Source: Gongronella butleri
Taxonomy: Eukaryota > Mucoromycota > Mucoromycetes > Mucorales > Cunninghamellaceae
DNA: 64,000 bases
Reading direction: 5' to 3'
Assembly: GCA_025201375.1 (NCBI GenBank)
Contig: JAIWZP010000016.1
Location: forward strand, 1 to 64,000
A program made the position numbers and the translations under genes. The notes beneath the pieces were generated by a model. It had not been told where the DNA came from. It saw only the letters and a program-made list of their open reading frames with translations, and made no database searches. Positions 19,273 to 43,744 of the stretch are shown one piece after another; positions within the stretch are counted from its first letter, which is position 1; each line of letters starts with the position of its first letter.

Positions 19273-19908
19273 TTATCGAGAGCCGCGTCGGGATCGCTTC
19301 AATGAGTTGGTGCATTTCAATGAGATATGTCTCTGCAAAGCGGATATTGATATACTGGGAACGGAGGGGAATTCTCGCAGCAAGGCCTGGCGAATATTTT
19401 CCAGCGTGGCGTCGTGGTGCACTGCAAGGTAAGAGTCAATCCAGACGGTATGAACGTCCAACAGGGTTGGTGGTGCAGTGCGGCCACGATGTTTGCGCTG
19501 CGGAATGATGCCATTGTTCGCTTTGTACTTCTTCAGCAAGGTCGCCGCGGTCGAGCGCGCAATACCAGCCCGGCGAGCCGCAGCCGACACGGAAAGGCTT
19601 TCGTTGAAGTGGCCGTTGACCAGGAGCTCCAGCTGAATAGGCGTGGCTGTCTTGTATGGGCTTCGCTTTCCACGGTTGACTCGTCGTTGGCCAAGCTGAT
19701 ATGTTTGGCTGCTGGATGCCGCGGCTGTTGTCGACACCCAGGAAAGATCACTCGCGTTCACATCTTCTGGAGCTGGCGCCAAGCTTGATTGAGGGGACAT
19801 TTCGCTGGCTCCGGGCTGGGTATCTTGTAGCGAACCGCTGTCGCCTATTTGTTCCTCTTTGGGGTCCTTGGGACCAGTATAGTGTTCAAATCGTATAAAG
19901 GACGCCAT
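19273..19908 (-). CDS. Transposase-type double helix-turn-helix protein without catalytic domain
   Basis: A single-exon frame of 211 aa, start ATG at 19908. The first 75 residues are acidic and Ser-rich. Residues about 95-195 contain two helix-turn-helix units: NESLSVSAAARRAGIARSTAATLLKKY, and TLENIRQALLREFPSVPSISISALQRHI. This is the paired-like bipartite DNA-binding head of Tc1/IS630-type transposases. The protein then stops after a basic tail (SLKRSRRGSR), so the DDE catalytic domain is absent. It could be a domesticated transposase head acting as a regulator, or an unrelated HTH factor. Clean reading frame, good codon structure and a nearby divergent gene argue for a live gene. It borders the footprint-rich region. 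Confidence 0.65.
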   Translation of the reverse strand: MASFIRFEHYTGPKDPKEEQIGDSGSLQDTQPGASEMSPQSSLAPAPEDVNASDLSWVSTTAAASSSQTYQLGQRRVNRGKRSPYKTATPIQLELLVNGHFNESLSVSAAARRAGIARSTAATLLKKYKANNGIIPQRKHRGRTAPPTLLDVHTVWIDSYLAVHHDATLENIRQALLREFPSVPSISISALQRHISLKCTNSLKRSRRGSR

Positions 19909-20135
19909 TTGTGTTGTGACAAGAGTTAAAAAAAAAAAAAAGGGTAAGAAAGGAAGAGAACAGGTAGAGGAGAATGAGAAGGTCCGCGCCGAAAAATATG
20001 CGGCCGTGATCGTGACGTTTTTTTTTGGGGGGGCCGCCACGCACTGAGAAATTGCAATGCCCCTCTACCCCCCTTTTTTTTTTCTATCTCTCTCTCTCTT
20101 TCTCTCTCTCTCTCTAAGTCACTATCTTCTAAACA
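19909..20135. promoter_or_regulatory. Shared promoter of HTH gene and glutaredoxin-like gene
   Basis: 227 bp between divergent starts. It contains a T9/G8 run (20020-20032) and a (CT)n tract (about 20085-20116) 20 bp before the glutaredoxin-like start, a common pyrimidine-rich promoter layout in this window. Confidence 0.45.
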
Positions 20136-20484
20136 ATGTCAAGACCCATTGTTCTCACCCTGTTTTCGTCAAAGACTTGCTCATTGTGCAACACTGCAAA
20201 GGCGACTCTGCTTAAAGCTCAGAAAGAGGTACATTCATATATGTATGTGCTTTTTTTCTCTATGAATTCTAATACTGTAACCGTATTATAAGTCGGTTTT
20301 CGACTTGAAAGTTGTCGATATTCACAGCAATGAGTGTCCCAAGGAGGCTGAAAAATACATATTTGACATACCTGTGGTGCATCTGAACGACAAATTTCTT
20401 GTGCAGCACAGAGTACATTATGAAGAATTGTTAAATGCACTAGCCACATACTCAAAAACAGGCGAAGTTGTGCGAATTAAATAA
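20136..20484 (+). CDS. Glutaredoxin-like small protein (DUF836 / C5orf63-like)
   Basis: Two exons, 20136-20228 and 20293-20484, give 94 aa. The protein starts SRPIVLTLFSSKTCSLCNTAK, with a CSLC active-site-like motif in a thioredoxin-fold beta-alpha start. After the splice come FDLKVVDIHSNECPKEAEKY, then FDIPVVHLNDKF with the cis-Pro-type DIPVV of glutaredoxins. The family (human C5orf63, yeast YDR286C) has no firmly known role; a thiol-redox function is inferred from the fold. The intron contains a TACTGTA heptamer at 20273-20279, the first of the dense series that follows. Confidence 0.85.
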
Positions 20485-21659
20485 GATTTGACGACATTTT
20501 GTCACGTTGCGACATGACACTGTCTGGAGGTGGTCATCTACCCCTCAGGGACACGTTTTGACGCGCCCAGCAGTAAGAGAGCCTTGAGATGCAGTGACTT
20601 GCTTAGGAGCAGGCGCGTGTAGCTCAATGTTTGACGCGGTTTATCATGCGTCGAAAAAATGGCAATGATTTTGAACTCGTGTCAAAACTCAAAAATAATA
20701 ATAAAAAAATTACTGTTTTTCATTGATCACTAATGTCCACGTGCGCAGCCAGCCATGCTTTTTCTGGTGGTAGCGTGGTACAGTGTTTCTCAGAGATACA
20801 GTATCATGCAAGCAATTTTTGTAGATTTGACCTTACTCCTTCTTACTGTACCCACCATGCATGGTTGGATCGCCTCCAGAACCCTTTGAATTAGACCATT
20901 TTGTCATGTCTTTTCAACGCGGTGTTGAAAACCAGAGGTCATTTGAGTCGCTGTGCAGATGAATCAAAAACATCGACATTTTCACAATTACAGCATACAG
21001 TACTGTAACAATGTCTTGGTCAAATTCTTCTTCGATCGCAATGAAATTTGCGTTGTTCGTATCAGACGGGCTCCTCGTACTTCATTGCCATAATGTTTGT
21101 TTGCCGCTTTGCCCGGAGCGTGAACTTTGTACGCTTGTGAAACCCGTTCAAACATTTCAAATTTTTTTCTAGGTACCTCGATGTTCTCCGATAACCGATG
21201 ATACAGTAATTTTTTTGTGTGAAATAGGGCCTTTATTTTCATGATCATACAGTAGTGATACTGTATTCATATTGATGAAATGTGAGCGAGAGAGTAAAAA
21301 GAAAAAGGAAAGGGGAGGGGGAGAGGGCAAATTGGGCATCATGTACGGTACTTGTTACGTACTGTACGTGTGAAGGGTGCGTGGCTCTACTTTCGTTTGT
21401 CTGTGGCACTGTGGGGATCGGTAGGAGGGACCGCACACCGCAGGCGGTCCTTCCAGGTCGCCGCAGTCAGCGGCGTGCCTTGACGGTCGAAGTCGTGGAC
21501 TCGTGGTGAGCGAGCATCATACTGTACAGTATGACGATATGAGCAATTGATGGCAGGGAGTCTCTTGGGCAGCGTGGGCCATGCGCATCCAGCAGGAGTG
21601 CACTGCGGATGCTACTGTACATGTAATTTTGTGGACTTACTGTAAGTCTTCTACTGTAA
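20485..21659. other. Gene-free spacer with footprints
   Basis: No coding sequence is recognised. It contains 13 TAC(A/T)GTA heptamers, including overlapping doubles at 20996-21007 and 21520-21531, and a purine-rich stretch (21290-21330). The flanking sequence is otherwise unique in the window. Confidence 0.6.
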
Positions 21660-22040
21660 AAATCGCGTAAAGCCGTAAACTGCGATTATCTCGAAATTTT
21701 AGTAAGTTAACGCACACCCTGTGACCAGAACTTTATTCGATTCTAAATTAAAGTTTACTTCTGGTTACGTACGTGAACAGAATTACGAATTGAATGATTT
21801 TTGAGGCACTGGTATTAGAACAAATCGCAATTAAGATGGGCCAAAATCGCATCCAAATCGCAAAGTGCTCAAAATTCAACAACTTGATATGTATTTCAGA
21901 TTTTACCATGCGATTTACCGTAGATTCGTCAATCACCCCCAGAAGAGAGCCTGTCAAAGCATCAGAAAATCAAAGCTAAATGCACTCAAAAAGCAAATTG
22001 GAATGCCCAATTCTAGACTTAAGTCCCCAAAATTAAGTAT
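21660..22040 (-). mobile_element. Diverged partial copy of the 605-bp TIR element
   Basis: Aligns with 24225-24560 in the same orientation, with shared blocks such as TGCGATTATCTCGAAATTTTA, AACTTTATTCGATTCTAAAT, GAACAGAATTACGAATTGA and TGCCCAATTCT. It is clearly older (many substitutions). It lacks the footprint present at 24408/22392 in the intact copies and has its own mutated one, TTTACCGTAGATT, where the intact copies read TTTAGAAT. Confidence 0.75.
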
Positions 22041-22212
22041 ACTGTAGGTAGGCGCCGATCTGCTGCAGCTGCTGGTGGGATCTTCTGTCATGGAAGGCGA
22101 GCAGGAGCGCGCTCAATTGCTGTTGGAAACCAGGTCTCCGGAGGTGTTGATTGTTGAAGCGCCAGGTACAGTACAGTACTACCTTGGCCCTGGCTGTTGG
22201 GTGATGATGCGT

Positions 22213-22817
22213 CGCCTAGATAGGATTTTCTGTTGATACTGTAAATCGAGAATTGGGCAATCGAATTGGCACTTTGAGTGCACTTGGCTTTGCATTTGCG
22301 ATGCTTTGACAGACGTTCTAGGGGTAATTGATGATTCTAAATCGCATGGTGAAGTCTGAAATGCATGTCAGGTTGCTGGATTTGGAGCACTTACAGTAAG
22401 CGATTTGCGCCGATTTCGCCCTGTCTTTGAAGTTTGCTCTAATACAAGTGCTTCAAAAATCGCTCAATTCGTAATTCTGTTCACGTAACCAGATGTAAAA
22501 TTTGATTTAGAATCGAATAAAGTTCTCACACGGTGTCCGTTAACTTAATAAAATTTCGAGATAATCGCACTTTAGGACTTTACGCGATTTTACGCGATTT
22601 TGGCCTTTGGCGGCGGTAAAATGCGATTATCAGGTGTTTTTATTAAACGAGCAAGGCTCGAAAGTAACACCATTCGATTCCAAATCAAATTCTACATCCA
22701 GGGGCATCGCGTTAGTTCATCTCAGTGCATTCCTGGGCGCTCAGCAAGAGATTACTGTAAAGTCAAAAATGCAGCTGCCCAATTCTCGATTTATGAACAG
22801 AAAATCCTAGCTAGGCG
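22213..22817 (+). mobile_element. 605-bp non-autonomous TIR element (MULE-like), left copy
   Basis: The ends are inverted repeats: CGCCTAGATAGGATTTTCTG at the left and CAGAAAATCCTAGCTAGGCG at the right, extending inward through AAATCGAGAATTGGGC. No protein is encoded. Its near-identical partner lies inverted at about 23991-24600. The left flank ends ATGATGCGTC and the right flank begins GTACAGTATC; the partner has the complementary pair of flanks. A 10-bp target duplication and long TIRs would fit a Mutator-like MITE. It contains footprints at 22237, 22392 and 22753. Confidence 0.8.
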
Positions 22818-23850
22818 TACAGTATCCCCATCGCTGCTGAATGATGATGATCAAGAAGACAAGAAGAACTTATGGTGGGGTTGTGTGAGTCCATGGCGGT
22901 ATTACTACAGTACGGGAGAAGAGTATTGGAAGTCAAGAAAGTTCACCGCATGGGCCGGCTTTTTTGAGGGACAGGAGGCATCCGTACTTTTGGACACGTC
23001 GGAGAACGAGGACGCGGAGAAAGACAAGGAACCGCTGGTGCCATTGGCGAGAATAATATATTACTCAACTGTATCTCTCCTACTGGAACACGCGTACGTT
23101 GAATTTTCCGGGATCAAATACCCCCCCGACCCCAGCTACACCCAGGTTTTGGCCAATCACGATGAAGCTGCAAATGGCGTTTTATATGTTTTCAAGGGCG
23201 TACAGTATAAACTCATGGCGGTGTCTAAATTACGTGTCCATTTGCTGGGTTTTGAGTACTTAGAGATTTGGCTCAAATGCTGCGGTTTGCTCTAATGGAA
23301 TTACCTCAAAACCTGCTTAAATCGCCATTTTGTCACACGAGTGCGATGTAAAATTTAATTTAGAATCGAATAAAGTTCTCACACGATGTCCGTTAACTTA
23401 GTAAAATTTCGAGATAATCGCAATTTACGACATTTTGGCCGATTTTGATTTTTGGCGGTAAATGTGCGATTTTTTCACGTTTTTATTAAGAGAGCATGGC
23501 TCGAAAGTAACACCATTCGATTCCAAATCAAATTTTACATTCAGGGGCGTCGCGTTGTAGCCTCTACAGTAAGTGCACTTCCTGGGCGTCTAGCAAGAGA
23601 TTAAAACGTCTTTACCAGCCAGTCAAGTATTTGATCCCGGAAAATTCAGCATAGGCCTGGAACACGATGGCCTTTGCCAGTTACAGTACTAGCTACAAAG
23701 GTGCTGCGCAAGACATCTGTTACTTCTGCCGCCAAGAAGGAGGACACAAGAGGGCTGCTGCTTGTCCAGCCCGCGCCAAGATCATCTGTCGCCGATGCCA
23801 CGACGACGAGCCCTCCGAGAGCTCTTGCTTCGTTGCTTGCTTGAATCACC
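22818..23850 (+). pseudogene. LINE gag-like (ORF1) pseudogene, copy A, 3' portion
   Basis: Encodes a degraded gag-like protein. The block GFFEGQEASVLLDTSENEDA at about 22960-23015 is followed, after an interposed TIR-element fragment (23225-23620), by a zinc knuckle CYFCRQEGGHKRAAACP and ARAKIICRRC (23720-23815). It matches copy B at 25600-26630 (minus). Its 5' portion is not upstream here but sits inverted at 24601-24690, because an inversion between the two 605-bp elements split it. Several stop codons and footprints interrupt the frame. Confidence 0.7.
23225..23620 (+). mobile_element. Diverged internal copy of the 605-bp TIR element
   Basis: Aligns with 22430-22770: shared blocks include TTTAGAATCGAATAAAGTTC, CGTTTTTATTAAG.GAGC, CTCGAAAGTAACACCATTCG and CCTGGGCG. 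It lacks the footprint found at 22753 (reads GAGATTAAAACG where intact copies read GAGATTACTGTAAAG) and carries a private one at 23565. Confidence 0.75.
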
Positions 23851-23876
23851 CAAACATCGCAGCGCACGTCCACAAC

Positions 23877-23990
23877 GAACCATGGATCATCTGTGGAGAT
23901 TTCAACCTGAAATTCTACCAGCCTCAGGACGCCCACCACGAAGATCAACAGCTTTTTTAGGTACGACATGGAAAACATTGACGCATCATG
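23877..23990 (+). pseudogene. Short endonuclease-like (APE) fragment
   Basis: Translation gives EPWIICGDFNLKFYQPQ, which contains the IICGDFN motif typical of the APE-type endonuclease of LINE ORF2. Only about 30 codons remain. It lies next to the right inverted element, inside the segment inferred to be inverted. Confidence 0.4.
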
Positions 23991-24600
23991 CCTAGCTAGG
24001 ATTTTCTGTTCATAAATCGAGAATTGGGCAGCTGCATTTTTGACTTTACAGTAATCTCTTGCTGAGCGCCCAGGAATGCACTGAGATGAACTAACGCGAT
24101 GCCCCTGGATGTAGAATTTGATTTGGAATCGAATGGTGTTACTTTCGAGCCTTGCTCGTTTAATAAAAACACCTGATAATCGCATTTTACCGCCGCCAAA
24201 GGCCAAAATCGCGTAAAATCGCGTAAAGTCCTAAAGTGCGATTATCTCGAAATTTTATTAAGTTAACGGACACCGTGTGAGAACTTTATTCGATTCTAAA
24301 TCAAATTTTACATCTGGTTACGTGAACAGAATTACGAATTGAGCGATTTTTGAAGCACTTGTATTAGAGCAAACTTCAAAGACAGGGCGAAATCGGCGCA
24401 AATCGCTTACTGTAAGTGCTCCAAATCCAGCAACCTGACATGCATTTCAGACTTCACCATGCGATTTAGAATCATCAATTACCCCTAGAACGTCTGTCAA
24501 AGCATCGCAAATGCAAAGCCAAGTGCACTCAAAGTGCCAATTCGATTGCCCAATTCTCGATTTATCAACAGAAAATCCTACAGTATCTAGGCGATACTGT
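23991..24600 (-). mobile_element. 605-bp TIR element, right copy (inverted)
   Basis: The reverse complement of 22213-22817 almost base for base. The two copies share footprints at 24047/22753 and 24408/22392, but each has a private one: here at 24579 (CCTACAGTATCTAGG versus CCTATCTAGG in the left copy), and in the left copy at 22237. The inner flank reads GACGCATCAT (reverse complement ATGATGCGTC); the outer flank reads GATACTGTAACGG (reverse complement CCGTTACAGTATC). Confidence 0.85.
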
Positions 24601-24690
24601 AACGGCTGAGCACGCGTCGTCATGTGAGTTTCATGGGCATCCCTAATAAGTCGATTTTTTGCCCGCAGTGGCCTTGATGGTTACGGTAGT
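24601..24690 (-). pseudogene. LINE gag-like pseudogene, copy A, 5' portion
   Basis: Matches 26408-26490 of copy B in the same orientation (CGGCTGAG, GTGAGCTTCATAGGC-like and GTGGCCTTGATGGT blocks). It ends at exactly the point where copy A's 3' portion begins at 22818, confirming that the gag was split by the TIR element and a later inversion. Confidence 0.65.
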
Positions 24691-25589
24691 AGGACTAAAG
24701 TGGGTTAGACGTTTACTGTAAATACAGTACCTACTGTAGGCTGCCAGGCCTGCCACCGCATGGAAATAGGCTACCGGTATGTGGCGATTTCGATGTCAGG
24801 CACCACACTTTCTCAAGATCTCAACTGAGCTTCTTACAGTACTACTGTAAATGCGGGTCTGATCTGCTGCGCATCATCCAGATCAATGCCAGATTTGACA
24901 CCAGACTTGCATTACTGTAGCGTCGTGTAGCGCACAAAAATGTGCAAAATAAAATACCGGTAAATAAAAAAATTGTATGAATCCTGAGTTCTTGACCAAA
25001 CTGTAGTAGGCATTTTTCTTGGTCGATCACCGTTCATGCGTAATGGGTTTTTTTCATAATTTGGGGCGACCACCACGCGACCTGCCATTTTGTTTGCCAA
25101 TAGCAAATCGCCAAAGTTACCTGTTTAGGATGTATTGATCACTCGGAGCTCGAAATTCCCAAATTTGGCATTTCCTGACAAGTTGAAAACTTGAAATGTG
25201 TAACCCCTGATTTTTTCAAAAGTGGTCGTGGCGCTTTACGTGTCACGATCCAATTAGTGAGCAGCATACTGTTGTACAGTATTTGCTTTTTTTGTATACT
25301 GTAAAACATAATACTGTAGTTGGCGGGGCAGAAGAGTCGTGGCATGCAGAGGTGGTGCAATACTGTTCAAGAGGGTATTTTCTTCGTGACGGGTGATTCG
25401 GCACCGGGTACCTTGCGTTGTTGGTACTGTAGCTTGTCGTGTACAGTATCGTGCGGTACCAAGCTTGCATGGCCTTATGGGATATCCGTCGTGCGAACAA
25501 GAGCTTCCACACTTTGGCAGGCGTACTGTATTCCAGAACGGCTGCATTTCCATGGCTGGAGGACGGGACTCCGGGCGCCATACCCATTG
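24691..25589. other. Footprint-rich spacer
   Basis: Twelve heptamers in 900 bp, including a chain TACTGTA-AA-TACAGTA-CC-TACTGTA at 24714-24738 and a pair at 24835-24849. No protein family recognised. Confidence 0.6.
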
Positions 25590-26630
25590 AGCTTTGGGAT
25601 GCAGAGTCGATCTATGATGGCTTATTCATTCCTCCCTGTCTTGCTGGGAAGTCGATCATCCGTGGTTTCCATTTCCACTGATGATGCTGCCGAGGATGAG
25701 TCGACGAATGGGTCATCCGCGAAAGGGTCGTCCCCTTGCTTCCTTGTCATTGGTGTCATGTGCATTCTTGGCTCCCTCGATGATGTGATGATGGTCTTCC
25801 TCCATCATGTTGTCTGTGGTTTGTTTGTTCAGTGTTGTCTACTCGGCATCATGCTGCTCCGCAGCAGTGTCGGTGATCGTCATTTCAGGCGTGTTTTGCT
25901 GATCATTTCCTATGTTGCTTTTCTTGGGTTCCGGCTGGAGGGTTTCCTCCGATTTGCGCGAAAGGATTCTCTTGGCTCCCATCATCACCGTTGGGCGTTC
26001 CTCCTATTCCGAATGGCATTCCCGGGCTATGTGCCCCTTTCCATGACAGCGCGGCAGATGATCTCGGCCCGAGTTGGGCAAATGGTGGTGCGCTTGTGGC
26101 CTTCTTGACGGCAGTAGTAGTGGTAGCAGATTTCCTTTGCACCTTTGTAGCTTGCAAATGCCGTCACGTCCCAGAACGATACTGTAGGTATACCATTCTG
26201 GACAGTGGTACGATGGGTTCCAGGTCCTTCGCGTCTTCGTCGTCCGACGTGTCCAAAAGCACTGATGCCTGTTCTTCAAAAAAGCCCACCATGCGGCGGT
26301 GAACTTGCCCGATTTCAACAACTTTGCCATATACCGGTACAGCCATTGACTCACCCAACCCCATCATTACTGTAATTCTTGATCATCAGCAGCGATGGGG
26401 ATACAGTACGGCTGAGATTTACTCGTGTGAGCTTCATAGGCGTGTCTGATTCAACAATGCCTGCTGTGGCCTTGATGGTAATGCGCTAATGCCGTCTACC
26501 TCGATGCCCTTTTGCAATGCGGCTTTCGTCGCCTTGGCCGCTTGGTGTCCCTGAAAACCACGTTAAGGAGCGTGGTTTTGCGGCGCATGAAATCCCCTTG
26601 GACAGGGGTTACACCAACGATGTTGCCTAG
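25590..26630 (-). pseudogene. LINE gag-like (ORF1) pseudogene, copy B
   Basis: On the minus strand the order is: VGVTPVQGDFMRRKTTLLN (near 26600), KATKAALQKGIEVDG, then VGFFEEQASVLLDTSDDEDA (about 26290-26230), AFASYKGAK, a zinc knuckle CRQEGHKRTICP with ARAEIIC, and a second HGKGHIAREC. A Ser/Asp-rich tail (DDPFADDPFVDSSSAASS) continues to about 25690. It is homologous to copy A but independent of the TIR insertion. Frameshifts coincide with footprints at 26402, 26368 and 26180. The protein type resembles nucleic-acid-binding ORF1 of LINEs. Confidence 0.65.
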
Positions 26631-26633
26631 CTT

Positions 26634-26902
26634 GGAGGACGTTCAACTCCGTAAAAACATGGTAAATACCGAGCGATGATTTTCTTTTATTAGTGGACAC
26701 AACGATAACACAAAGAAAACGTCATTAACACACATAAAACACGCATAGAAATACTGTAATTAAAATAGCAAAATAAAACACGATCCAAAGATGCAAAGAA
26801 TACAGTATCACCCATTTACAAACCTGTTATCGTTGTGTCCACTAATACTGTAAAAGAAAATCATCGGTATTTACCATGTTTTTACAGAGTTGAACGTCCT
26901 CC
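26634..26902. mobile_element. 269-bp MITE with about 80-bp inverted repeats
   Basis: The left arm starts GGAGGACGTTCAACTC and runs to GTGGACACAACGATAACA (26712); the right arm is its reverse complement from about 26825 to 26902. No coding sequence lies between. The arms differ by one exact 5-bp event: the left arm has CTTTTATTAGTGG, the right (reverse complement) CTTTTACAGTATTAGTGG. A target duplication is not evident. It sits at the 5' edge of gag copy B. Confidence 0.8.
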
Positions 26903-26934
26903 GTACCTTTGATTTTTTTCTGTCTACACCGAAC

Positions 26935-27528
26935 TAGGGTTGCTTATTGAGAATCTCGATCATGATCTCGAAATCTCGATCGGCTTATTGACGAGATGAG
27001 ACGACTCCAATCTCGATCATCTCGCTAAAAAATAAATTTGAATCTCGAATCTCGATCGAAATCTCGATAAAAAATTAAGGTTTAGTGTACGTGTGCCACC
27101 TGGACACAACAATTAATTCTCAAATTGAGCGTTGTGGCGTAATGGTTCTGACTTTGCTCTCTGGTGATGTGGGGTTCAAGTCCTGACTTTGGGTTGAATT
27201 TTCGAACACTTTTTTGACTTTTGGGCTGAACTTTTTGCTTGGAAGAAATAGCTTACGGTATTTCTCGAAAAATATCTCGAAATCTCGATCAATCGTGATC
27301 TCAATCGTAATATTATCGATCGAATTCTCGATCGAAATGTTCATCAAAGGTCAAAAAATCTTTGAATCCTTGAAAAATGGGTGCATGAGAATCTCGATAC
27401 TGTAAGTCTCGAATCTCGAAAGATGAGATACTGTCTCGATAAGCATATCGATCGAGACACTTCAAATTATTCTTCGATCGAGACGAGATGGGGTCAATCT
27501 CGTCTCAATCGATCGATAAGCAACCCTA
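26935..27528. mobile_element. 594-bp hAT-like MITE filled with TCTCGAT repeats
   Basis: The ends are TAGGGTTGCTTAT and its inverted copy ATAAGCAACCCTA. An 8-bp direct repeat CACCGAAC flanks it (26927-26934 and 27529-27536), the target-duplication size of hAT elements. The interior carries about 15 TCTCGA motifs, often as AATCTCGATC, on the plus strand. One footprint (27398) lies inside, so excision activity continued after this insertion. No transposase is encoded. Confidence 0.85.
27126..27197 (+). other. tRNA-like / pol III promoter-like segment inside the hAT MITE
   Basis: GTGGCGTAATGG resembles an A box, and GGGGTTCAAGTCC about 35 bp downstream resembles a B box. No cloverleaf acceptor stem can be formed, so it is at most a decayed tRNA- or SINE-derived piece captured in the MITE. 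Confidence 0.3.
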
Positions 27529-28030
27529 CACCGAACCACATCCCTGCCTTGTTTGTCCACAATATCAAGATGCGTCCTGTCAAGAGAGTTCACGAGCGCC
27601 CTGCCCGTCATACAGTATCCGTGGCGCCGCCTCACGCCACGCGCAGTAACGACCACGCCGCGAACGTCTCGTTGTGCGGGCCGCTGACGGGGCCCGTCGC
27701 CGCCCCGCTATGCGCTCCATGCTTTCGCCAGAGACTCTGGCCCGTTGGCCCCAACATCACAAGAGGACGGTCCAGCAGAGGATCGCCACATTACGGCTTT
27801 ACGTAGGCGTTCAGGGATTTAAACTTTTTTGTTGTACGTAAAATTTGCGCTGAATGCGAATATGCGATGCAGTTGTTTTTGAGCGGAGTCGGCCAAGCAG
27901 ATGGCGAGATTGCATATATGATACTGTATGATACTGTAGATGTGTAGACCAAATTGTTTATTTTTGGAGTTTGCGCTTTGCGGGATCGAAAAAAAATTAA
28001 GCGTGTTTTTATTTTTTTTCAAAAGAGAGC
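27529..28030. other. Spacer with a dispersed repeat copy
   Basis: 27530-27810 is relatively GC-rich and may be decayed coding DNA of an unrecognised element into which the hAT MITE inserted. From about 27816 to 27960 lies a copy of a dispersed repeat also found near 41900-42015 and 55097-55345. Two footprints at 27922 and 27932 are private to this copy. Confidence 0.5.
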
Positions 28031-39880: not shown

Positions 39881-42800
39881 TTAAAATGGAAGCAAGAGTT
39901 CGATCTAGCAAGCAAAGGTTGAAAAAGCAAAAGAAAAGTAAAAAATTGATAAAAGAAAACAGTGAAAGTGAAAATTGGATGAGAAAATCTCAGATATAAA
40001 GGTTTTTTGGGGGGTGGGAGGAAACTGCTGAATGTCGTGATGTGGGCAATCAATTTGATGGTAAAAAAAGGGGGGGCCGGGCTTTCAGCTATCTTTACAT
40101 CGCTTCTTGTTGTCTTCACGCACGGCAATATCTTCAATTTAAAAGCACCTCGCTATTTTCGTTGCTCATGGATTGCTTGTGCCGTTGACAATAAATGAGC
40201 GTGCGACGACAATGATTCTGCGTAAATGTCTTTTGAAGCGTTGAAATAAACATACAAACGGCTACTTGCTTTTGGATTGATAATTTCAGGGGGTGGTGCT
40301 GCAAGAAGAGGGTGAAAACACACACCCACAATGAAGTGAACTAAAATGAGAGAGGAGATTAGGAGAGTCATACGTTTAATGCGTGGGATTTGGGGTGAGA
40401 CAATCCAAAAAAAGGGTGCGCCTTCCCATACCAATTCCTTGGAATTTTTCGAGCAAGGAGACACGTAACGGTGAAAATGTCTATGCTTCTTCTATTTTGA
40501 GTAGGTGACGCCAGGCCTCCTTTACCCTTTAAAGAACAAAAAGGGGGTTGAAGTGAGATTCTTACAAACTTTATTTTTCTCCACGCCTCTTCTCTATTCA
40601 TCCAAGTGTCAATTGCCAGTGTTACTAGCTTTGAATTGACAAGGAGTATTGATCTACGTCGAGAAGCATGCCTTCCTTTTTTTTTTAAAAAAAAAGGAGA
40701 GACAAAAGACGCATCCGCAAGGAGAACAACGACACTGGCGCGACCTGTTGCACAAAATCGCCAGAAATAAGGGGTGAGGGGTGTGGGTTGCCATTGAACG
40801 GGACATGACCTTCAGAGCATCGCTCACTTCCATAAGGGCATTAAACAAACGTATTTTTTTCATTTGAATCATACTGTGGCACTTTGTTTTATTAAAATCA
40901 AACTGGTAGGGTCAGCTTTTATGCTGAACAAAAGAAAAGAACAAGCTCGATATCGATTAAAGGACTCGAAAATCAGGGGTAAAAAAAAAAAGCACAAACA
41001 AGAATGGGGCAAAAATGCGGAGATGACGGAAAGGGGTGGGTTGCTGAGGGTGAGCTCATGCGCCCCTGACAAAACATTGGAGCCAAACCATCGTGATGTC
41101 CAAGTAAATAGAATAAATAAAGTAGACTCAACGTCCTTCATCATCACCGTTGTAATGAATAGCAGAGAGCGATCAATCGATGATACATTCTTCCACCAAT
41201 GTTCATGTAGTACACGCTTATTTCTCAAAAAAAGCCGATGGCAGCAATTGATCCTTTTGTTTACTTGTCTGGAATTGGAAAAGACTCTCCTGTGGCCGGT
41301 AGCTTTAGGGCACCTCCAAGAAAAAAAAAAAAGAGAGAGAGAGAGAAAGACGGGCAAAAGGCAACATACTGCTCTTGCACGATTATACCGGTCCATCAGC
41401 ACCGCAGATTTCATTTTACATTGCTTGACGCGGTGTCCTACGGCGCGGTCAAGAGCTACGTTTGTGGCAAGGATCGGGTCCAAGCTATAGGGTAAACTTC
41501 AGGCACAATGTATTGTACAAATGCGGTAATCCACGCTTGTAAAACAAAAAGCCACTTTACGAGAATAGCATTTATGCCAGTGAAATTTTGAGTTGCTTTT
41601 GTGCGTCAGTATCCTGGTTTCTGAATCCGATCAGCTGGGCGTGCAGCATTGGCGAGCAATCCCGCCGAATATCGTCATTTTCAGTAACAATCACCTGTTC
41701 TCGATCTTTCTGCTATTCGATCAACTAGAACCTTTGTCAACAAACTTCCGGGCCGGATTGCAGTTCAACTTTTGCTGCCAGTGCCAAGAGGTTCCAACGC
41801 AGTAAAACCAAGTTAATGCGAGAAAAGCAAAATGACTCTAGCCCCTTGCATTTTGCGTGTCCTTTGCAAAACGTAAGCCAATTTGAAAGTTGAAACGATG
41901 TATGAATGCAAAACAGCCCAGAAAAAAATCGGGCTGGTCCGTCCTGAGCACTGGGATGTAGTTTATGCCGCGCATTGTCATTTACGGGCAAGTAGGCTGT
42001 AAAAAAAATTCTTCGGGTGTTGTATTTGCCTGCTTTACAGAGCTTGATTTACAGTAATACTGTACCTTCACTGTAAAGTACAGTAGTTCTGTAATAAAAG
42101 TCTTACAGACGCAGGTCTGTCAATGAAAGAGAGCGAAAGTGCGTCTTGAACGCGTCAATGCGCGTGCAAGCAGTGATTAAAGAATTAAAATGCTGACTTG
42201 TCAGGGCTATTGGTCTTTCTCATGCCGCTCCTCTTGCGGGCATTGCCCAATTGGGTCATGGACCCGCCTTGCTCATCACAAAAACCCCGCTGTCGGTTGG
42301 TCATCTCATTTTACCGCTTTTTCATGCGTTTTGGAAGAATGCACATCTTCCTCCATCTCGGTCTCTGTATGCATCATCACATTGTCTCAGATGCTTACGT
42401 ATAAACACACCCTCACATGAGCCTGATTTGATCATTAAATGATCAATGTCTTTAAGAAACAAAAGAAAATAAAAATAAAAATAGCTTATCCGTACCTAAC
42501 ATTGCGTGTTGGCAATCACGACTCGGACCATTATGTTTCTGGCACTTGCGCACCAAGTGAAAAAAACACGGTACTTGCAAGTATTGGCATGTTTGAATCA
42601 TCTGGATTGAGCATAACGTTTTGTTTGAGATCTGCGCGGCCATGTCTTGAACTCACGCCCCTGTTTCCGTATTTAGACGCCGCGACAGCTTCATTTTACG
42701 CGTCTGCGCATCTAGCCTATCCGTCTAGGCATTTTTCATTTTTGTATAAATATCGAGATTATTTTATTTTAATAAAAGAATTACTTCATTCTCGTTACTC

Positions 42801-43744
42801 TTAACGTCCCTATCTTTCTTCACCTTTTTCGCTCAAAGCTACTCCCATATTCTTCAGGAGGCACGGCAGCCCGGCAAAGTCTGAAAAATACTGTAACGTT
42901 CTTTGATGTCCAAAGGTAAATGTGTAGGTTTTTGTGCGGTGCAGGCGTGTAGCGCGATGCTTCAGGTACAGTACGGAAATGATAGCACGCATCGGTTTCT
43001 GTCCATTGAGAACGAAACATGGCCGGATCAAGCGCTCCACAGTATCATATTTGTGTGCAAAATCCAAAACGGACGAAATTTGTGCTTTTGTACATTTCTC
43101 GGGCACTTGCTGGTTGCTGGTTGCTGCTGAGATACTGATTGATTTTTTTTGTTACGCTTGCGGAAGCGGGGAAGCCCAACTTTATGAATACGGACAGGCA
43201 GGCAGAGACGCAGAGTCGAACTGTTACAGCATCACGTCCGCCAAACCAATATCGAAAATACAAGTATTCTAGAGTCAATGCTCACAAAGTCGCCGAGATC
43301 TCAGCGCAATGTCTTCAAACGACATGCACTTTTGCCGCGTTTGGCCGCGTTTGGCCGCTGATTCATTTGAGTGACTCGCGCATCGATATGTTGGGCCGTT
43401 GTTGCGTGTTGCTACTGTACCAGAATGGAAAAGAGCAAAAGACCTTACTGTACCCCCTTTTGCACGGGACGTCCTCCGGATATTCTTCATCGGGCTCTAT
43501 GATAAGATATATATTTTGCGCTCCATCCCTGGTTTCTCGACGCTAAGTAATTCTCATCGAGGCTCAATTCAAAGCTTCGAAGAGCTTTGTTGCGATTTGG
43601 AGGCTTATTTTTGTCAAAAATGTGCAGAGACTTTTTGCAGACTTGATTTCTTCCTTCCCCTAGACTCATTTCAAAATTCAACCCCAAATTTATAATAAAA
43701 CATACAGAGCATATGAACGTAAAAGCATAATTTTGCGTAATAAA
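39881..43744. other. 3.9-kb non-coding stretch with repeat traces
   Basis: No gene recognised. It holds G/C homopolymers (40010-40080), A-tracts, one dispersed-repeat copy (about 41900-42015) and eight TAC(A/T)GTA footprints from 42050 onward (three within 36 bp at 42050-42085). Open frames of up to 200 codons occur on both strands (for example 40869-41483) but show no family, no codon pattern and A-tract-driven Lys/Phe runs. Confidence 0.55.
41900..42015. repeat. Dispersed repeat copy 2
   Basis: Shares AAAAAAATCGGG.TGG, GAGCACTGGGATGTA, GTTTATGCCG and AGGCTGTAAAAAA.ATTCT with 55220-55345. No coding capacity. Confidence 0.6.

Follow-up and report, generated by a model that had tools for sequence, protein, structure and literature searches.

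TACWGTA heptamers in the Gongronella butleri genome as probable excision scars of Tc1 transposons that may favour their own scars as landing sites

Introduction

What would place one seven-letter word, TACWGTA (W being A or T), 51 times in 7.7 kb of a fungal genome? The heptamers occupy positions 20273–27938 (the field) of a 64,000-nucleotide stretch of Gongronella butleri DNA (the window; contig JAIWZP010000016.1, here C19). A first inspection of the letters (the original prediction) had taken them for a fossil field of footprints left by a Tc1/mariner transposon on excision. Cut-and-paste footprints have mostly been studied singly, in assays. A compact genome with a countable record of thousands of them would make excision, repair outcome and target choice readable from sequence. 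From the sequence comparisons below, the heptamers are almost certainly scars left on excision by Tc1 elements that resemble Sleeping Beauty and have TA-CAGT...ACTG-TA ends, and we think it quite probable that these elements prefer to land at CWG-TA-CWG, that is, at their own scars. For scar origin and landing preference as a joint explanation, we put the probability at about 0.8.

Results

TACWGTA starts at 65 positions in the window (27 TACAGTA and 38 TACTGTA). The predicted number of about 51 in the field was confirmed by count, as was the predicted minimum of 14 elsewhere (14 counted). Order-3 Markov sequences of field length (60 runs per setting) held a mean of 0.43 heptamers and at most 3 when trained on the window minus the field, and a mean of 3.9 and at most 10 when trained on the field itself; the 14 outside the field are also in excess (Markov mean 3.4, maximum 13). 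A genome-wide count against background, a check proposed with the original prediction, gave 16,213 TACWGTA in 32,997,837 bases (110 contigs) against 554 TAGWCTA, a word of equal composition that also has TA ends; the corresponding reversed words occur 6,355 and 3,872 times. The control words and Markov runs together rule out chance or base composition as the origin of the heptamers. The field is one of several clusters, and the first 100 genomic places listed are clumped over 2.3–250.6 kb of contig C1, the interval from 44,284 to 103,761 being free of them. The expectation that almost no heptamers would lie in exons was broadly right: 9 of 65 fall in stop-to-stop frames that span 200 codons or more and together make up 43% of the window, and seven of these nine are in the field, where a long frame is not necessarily a gene. 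Both variants and both orientations are present, as predicted; since TACAGTA and TACTGTA are reverse complements of each other, they represent one sequence on opposite strands and are not independent evidence. Preference for particular bases around single scars is weak (287 distinct sites).

If a heptamer is a scar, related copies of the same sequence may carry TA in its place. We used repeat copies inside the one genome for this comparison, in place of a comparison of strains. In all-against-all alignments of the window and loci fetched from the genome (numbered L below), 92 of 226 five-base indels were exactly TA versus TACWGTA, these being redundant aligned pairs and not distinct events. 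We then scored by site, allowing one site to fall in several classes, over 69 less redundant sequences (302,896 bases) from which 13 overlapping loci were omitted (L002–L008, L028, L030–L033 and L035) and in which the overlapping L077 and L080 were retained. Exactly TA was found in a relative at 28 of 165 scored heptamer sites, a substituted heptamer at 25 and another five-base loss at 14; the aligned pairs comprised 238 empty, 135 same, 57 substituted and 31 with other five-base losses. Four control words had no empty relative (ATCWGAT, 0/25; CACWGCA, 0/66; TTCWGTT, 0/4; AACWGAA, 0/10), nor did GANNNGA (0/573), and few were found for CANNNCA (2/871), TANNNTA without C.G (6/329) and TAGWCTA (1/12). 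The highest count among unrelated controls, 48/1,602 for TTNNNTT, probably reflects slippage in T runs. For 11 of the 165 sites the heptamer is probably the derived state, since the empty one appears in at least three alignments and accounts for most of the states scored.

Scars also separate copies that are otherwise nearly the same. L038 has the heptamer where L028, 99.1% identical, has TA; L074 and L043 differ likewise within an alignment of 99.3% identity. In the window, perfect 575-bp inverted copies differ beside their edges by TA versus TACTGTA, and the 14 window sites that could be scored include five with an empty relative, four with a same-heptamer relative and five with neither. By this comparison of copies, which is not an assay, TA becomes TACWGTA, as in excision of the Sleeping Beauty type. 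TATSATA (S being C or G) was considered as a second scar type and rejected: it is the second commonest TANNNTA word (182, against 507 TACWGTA, in the 302,896 bases of fetched loci) and often adjoins scars there (for example in L039, L040 and L042), yet an empty relative was found at only 1 of 40 scored sites.

The genome contains elements with the ends that such scars require. A DDE_3 search gave 74 matches, some of them inside elements with ends TA-CAGTGCCCGGACAAAA and similar. The search for TA-CAGT...ACTG-TA elements that had been suggested alongside the count, made with the pattern TACAGTRCCCNNMCAAAA, returned 195 ends of Tc1-like elements (starting TA-CAGTRCCC; 99 forward and 96 reverse), and its mirror control returned 0. 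Among the 100 end places listed, most are about 1.0 kb from their partner and some about 1.3 kb. Three copies of 1,334 bp are identical or differ at a single position, and the 21 elements of about 1.0 kb that were compared include four identical ones and two further identical pairs. One 1,334-bp copy encodes 341 residues from its ATG; this predicted transposase matches PF13358 and PF01498 above cut-off, has 34 residues between the second D and the E (DD34E), and finds a single PDB structure at an E-value of 0.001, that of SB100X (5cr4; E 2.9e-29). The elements thus combine the features of Tc1/mariner transposons: terminal inverted repeats (TIRs) beside TA, a DDE/D transposase with a Tc1-type helix-turn-helix and, in L072 compared with one-TA relatives, duplication of TA around an insertion of 1,016 bases (flanking CWG units counted as inserted).

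The alternation of TA and TACWGTA in repeat copies, the cases in the window, and source elements with matching ends and a DD34E transposase are the grounds on which we read the heptamers as Tc1/mariner excision footprints, as predicted. They are not only fossil, as had been supposed, because near-identical intact elements are present and near-identical repeats differ by a scar. The prediction that no intact copy is in view holds for the window by the searches run: blastn with seven elements gave zero matches, and tblastn of the transposase P0001 gave only two weak ones (E 0.09 and 0.72). Intact copies do exist elsewhere in the genome. A single source family had also been proposed; Tc1-like elements with matching ends are present, but more than one family may have made the scars, and several TIR variants lie side by side in the genome.

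The source element nearest to the window among those listed on its contig, C19:78523-79532, begins about 14.5 kb past it. It corresponds to positions 390–1399 of L037 (C19:78134-81574), where a CAGTG element of about 1.0 kb lies inside an element related to a second family, here family Y; the inserted element has CWG at one flank only, and its other flank reads CAA. Family Y (L028–L036 and L038) has TIRs beginning CCGTGGCTC and CCG ends. L026 (C2:204333-207776) is another element with a DDE_3 match, and its long inverted repeats end TA-CACTGACTGACAAAAGTG. Six DDE_3 matches score 9.8e-17; five lie within about 1.5 kb of contig ends (L016, L017, L018, L020 and L021, on C15, C5, C6, C86 and C104) and perhaps belong to a subtelomeric element, and the sixth is on C54 at 18.7 kb.

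The flanks of resident elements suggest where these elements land. Outward of the element, CWG precedes TA at 171 of 195 ends, and two such units are present at 62. In the control family Y, CWG was found at only 1 of 20 outward flanks (ten copies). In a sister family with TACCGTMCCC inner ends, CWG is present at 57 of the 58 ends listed, the search pattern having admitted any base but G at the fifth flank position. The flank is CACTG at six of the 58, as it would be if a CAGTG-type element ended there, and for one of these the coordinates confirm it (C2:209337/209353). We examined 24 elements more closely, namely three autonomous copies, L037 and 20 from the listed places, chosen regardless of flanks. 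Their 48 ends carry from zero to six outward C.G units (five, 25, eight, five, three, one and one ends, respectively). Most of the 24 thus have units on both sides, and each of the five zero-unit ends belongs to an element with units on its other side. At three of these ends the end of another element, or sequence like one, follows directly; the remaining two read CAA. A 7-bp target duplication was ruled out as the source of the flanking heptamers, because the two beside an element often differ in W.

Scars also occur in arrays with 5-bp steps. Genome-wide, the double scar TACWGTACWGTA occurs 1,613 times (control 12) and the triple 695 times (control 2). Doubles amount to 0.10 of heptamers and triples to 0.43 of doubles, which suggests that adding a third unit is easier at a TA already flanked by CWG on each side. 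In addition, C[CG]G units are enclosed by CWG units at 96 places (control 0), a pattern to be expected if the sister family with CCG inner ends also inserts into CWG-TA-CWG and scars it in turn. TACSGTA, the scar expected from family Y, occurs 1,999 times genome-wide (reversed word, 9,577), with an empty relative at 4 of 12 sites. It is from the CWG-TA flanks of residents, together with the arrays, that we read the landing preference.

The features of the window are collected in Table 1. Window 26930–27530 is rich in AATCTCGAT-like words by 8-mer counts. Adjoining the field, on the reverse strand at 19273–20040, is a 255-residue open frame that looks helix-turn-helix-like by eye and matches no Pfam family at E 0.001.

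Table 1 Scars, inverted repeats and heptamer clusters in the window
Feature	Position	Strand	Basis
Field of 51 TACWGTA heptamers, read as excision scars	20273..27938	.	count and background
Double scar TACAGTACTGTA	20996..21007	.	
Double scar TACTGTACAGTA	21520..21531	.	
Double scar TACAGTACAGTA	22167..22178	.	
Scar with empty-TA relative: TTGATACTGTAAATCG here, TTGATAAATCG in mirror copy 23990-24570	22237..22243	.	copy alignment
Left arm of 575-bp inverted repeat, arms 100% complementary	22242..22816	+	arm comparison
Scar with empty-TA relative L001	23201..23207	.	copy alignment
Scar with empty-TA relative L001	23565..23571	.	copy alignment
Right arm of 575-bp inverted repeat	23990..24564	-	arm comparison
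Scar with empty-TA relative: reverse strand TAGATACTGTAGG here, TAGATAGG in copy near 22220	24579..24585	.	copy alignment
Scar with empty-TA relative L034	25524..25530	.	copy alignment
Scar, small inverted repeat (about 26634-26902): heptamer in this arm, TA in the other	26846..26852	.	copy alignment
Second, smaller cluster, 7 heptamers	42050..43452	.	count

Discussion

The data are consistent with a cycle in which excision and insertion feed each other. The transposase would cut three bases inside each end, leaving three-base 3′ overhangs, as the form of the scar suggests, and end joining would seal the site as TA-CWG-TA. A TA flanked by CWG, whether from a scar or from another element's end, would then be the preferred next landing site; visits would seed further visits, each excision would add one unit to a (TACWG)n array, and arrays may shrink as well. 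We rather favour the wider proposal of a scar-homing group of transposons, for which scars and the ends of sister elements are preferred landing sites. Under that proposal, one visit to a plain TA could seed a self-reinforcing hotspot and grow a 5-bp satellite, (TACWG)n, common to several families.

Several observations weigh against scar origin with landing preference. CWG is lacking at 24 of 195 ends. An even choice among inner TAs predicts at least two units at 0.43 of CWG-bordered ends, and 62 of 171 (0.36) were observed. Single scars make up 59 of 62 arrays in the window and 100 of 112 in eight 10-kb stretches, most of which were chosen near heptamer clusters or transposons, although each of the 24 elements examined has a unit on at least one side, unlike a copy at plain TA. 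Where copies have identical interiors, W is the same at 10 of 13 comparable ends, above chance expectation. Among repeat copies, the same heptamer is present in a relative at 40 of 165 scored sites, 548 aligned pairs were unscorable through other length changes, and no site was found with all three states (TA, scar and element). The dominance of single scars, set against the absence of residents at plain TA, may arise because copies at plain TA leave fast, because arrays collapse by repeat-mediated repair, or because an earlier relative made many of the singles.

The last of these can be taken further. Most single scars at plain TA could be the work of another CAG-ended family, or of an earlier one, that targeted TA in the ordinary way; the elements now present would use only the double scars it left. 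The 0 of 24 elements at plain TA and the coexisting TIR variants are in keeping with this. However, plain-TA scars divide the nearly identical pairs L038/L028 and L074/L043, so such scars formed in recent time too, which argues against an earlier relative as the only cause of singles. We regard this explanation as unlikely.

The main competing account of the flanks, which we hold to be slightly more doubtful still, concedes the scars and places the true end of the element five bases further out (CWGTACAGTGCCC..., with W degenerate). Insertion at plain TA would then bring a heptamer to each side, excision at the outer borders would leave one scar, and single flanking units would need no landing preference. 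Single scars at plain TA are explained directly on this account, exactly one unit is the commonest flank (25 of 48 ends), and identical-interior copies tend to share W. The sites of two resident elements also fit: among 24 aligned relatives of the L072 site, 16 have TA, seven a base change in TA, one is gapped and none has the heptamer (some copies being counted twice, as L077 and L080 overlap), and at the L073 site the six of nine rows shown that reach the TA are all plain. (The flanks of L072, with L076–L081, belong to a tandem repeat found in many places, each unit being about 495 bases long; nearly all of the 108 joined-flank matches lie in it.) On the other hand, agreement in W falls to 35 of 63 ends among close copies with up to four differences. 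Abutting elements have one common TA with no CWG between them (L047, L055, L067; C2:209337/209353), and C[CG]G replaces CWG in some flanks (L048, L063, L074) as it does inside arrays. A longer end also leaves unexplained why many residents adjoin arrays. A conserved functional motif, or a 5-bp microsatellite made by slippage, is very improbable: relatives do share heptamers and arrays do resemble a microsatellite, but most arrays are single units, which offer slippage no repeat to work on, control words seldom differ from their relatives in the exact way that TACWGTA differs from TA, empty-TA copies contradict a conserved motif, and elements with matching ends are in the genome.

If scar origin with landing preference is right, it would entail positive feedback between excision and insertion and show how DNA transposons can give rise to short tandem repeats. 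The transposase would then be a natural one of the Tc1 type whose strong sequence specificity extends beyond TA. Should scar-homing also be true, heptamer fields would be living landing habitat rather than debris. The density of scars, which the original prediction had called undescribed, does appear unusual. In the literature searched, which included portions of PMC3432063, PMC4378557, PMC7827188 and PMC5953449 and few subscription papers, no genome-wide scar field or scar array is described, and any novelty extends as far as that literature.

Comparison with known systems

Family Y resembles the source elements in its DDE_3 transposase and TA flanks, and differs from them in its CCG ends, in the near absence of CWG from its flanks and in its expected scar. 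Among other fungal Tc1/mariner elements, relatives of the transposase with the same domains occur, for example, in Parasitella parasitica (43% identity) and Puccinia species. A further close counterpart is Sleeping Beauty, whose footprint, in the sections of PMC3432063 and PMC4378557 consulted, is TAC(A/T)GTA; this arises from a first nick made three bases in from the end of the element, the overhang being retained in end joining (PMC7827188, a review, in part). The Gongronella elements have in common with it this footprint, the TA target and a DD34E transposase. The same portion of the review describes Sleeping Beauty integration as nearly random once the TA target and local hopping are set aside. 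Unlike Sleeping Beauty as these sources present it, the Gongronella elements are natural and fungal, have left a genome-wide load of scars and scar arrays, and have 171 of 195 resident ends beside CWG-TA, a use of TA far from random among residents, which may be a biased sample of insertions.

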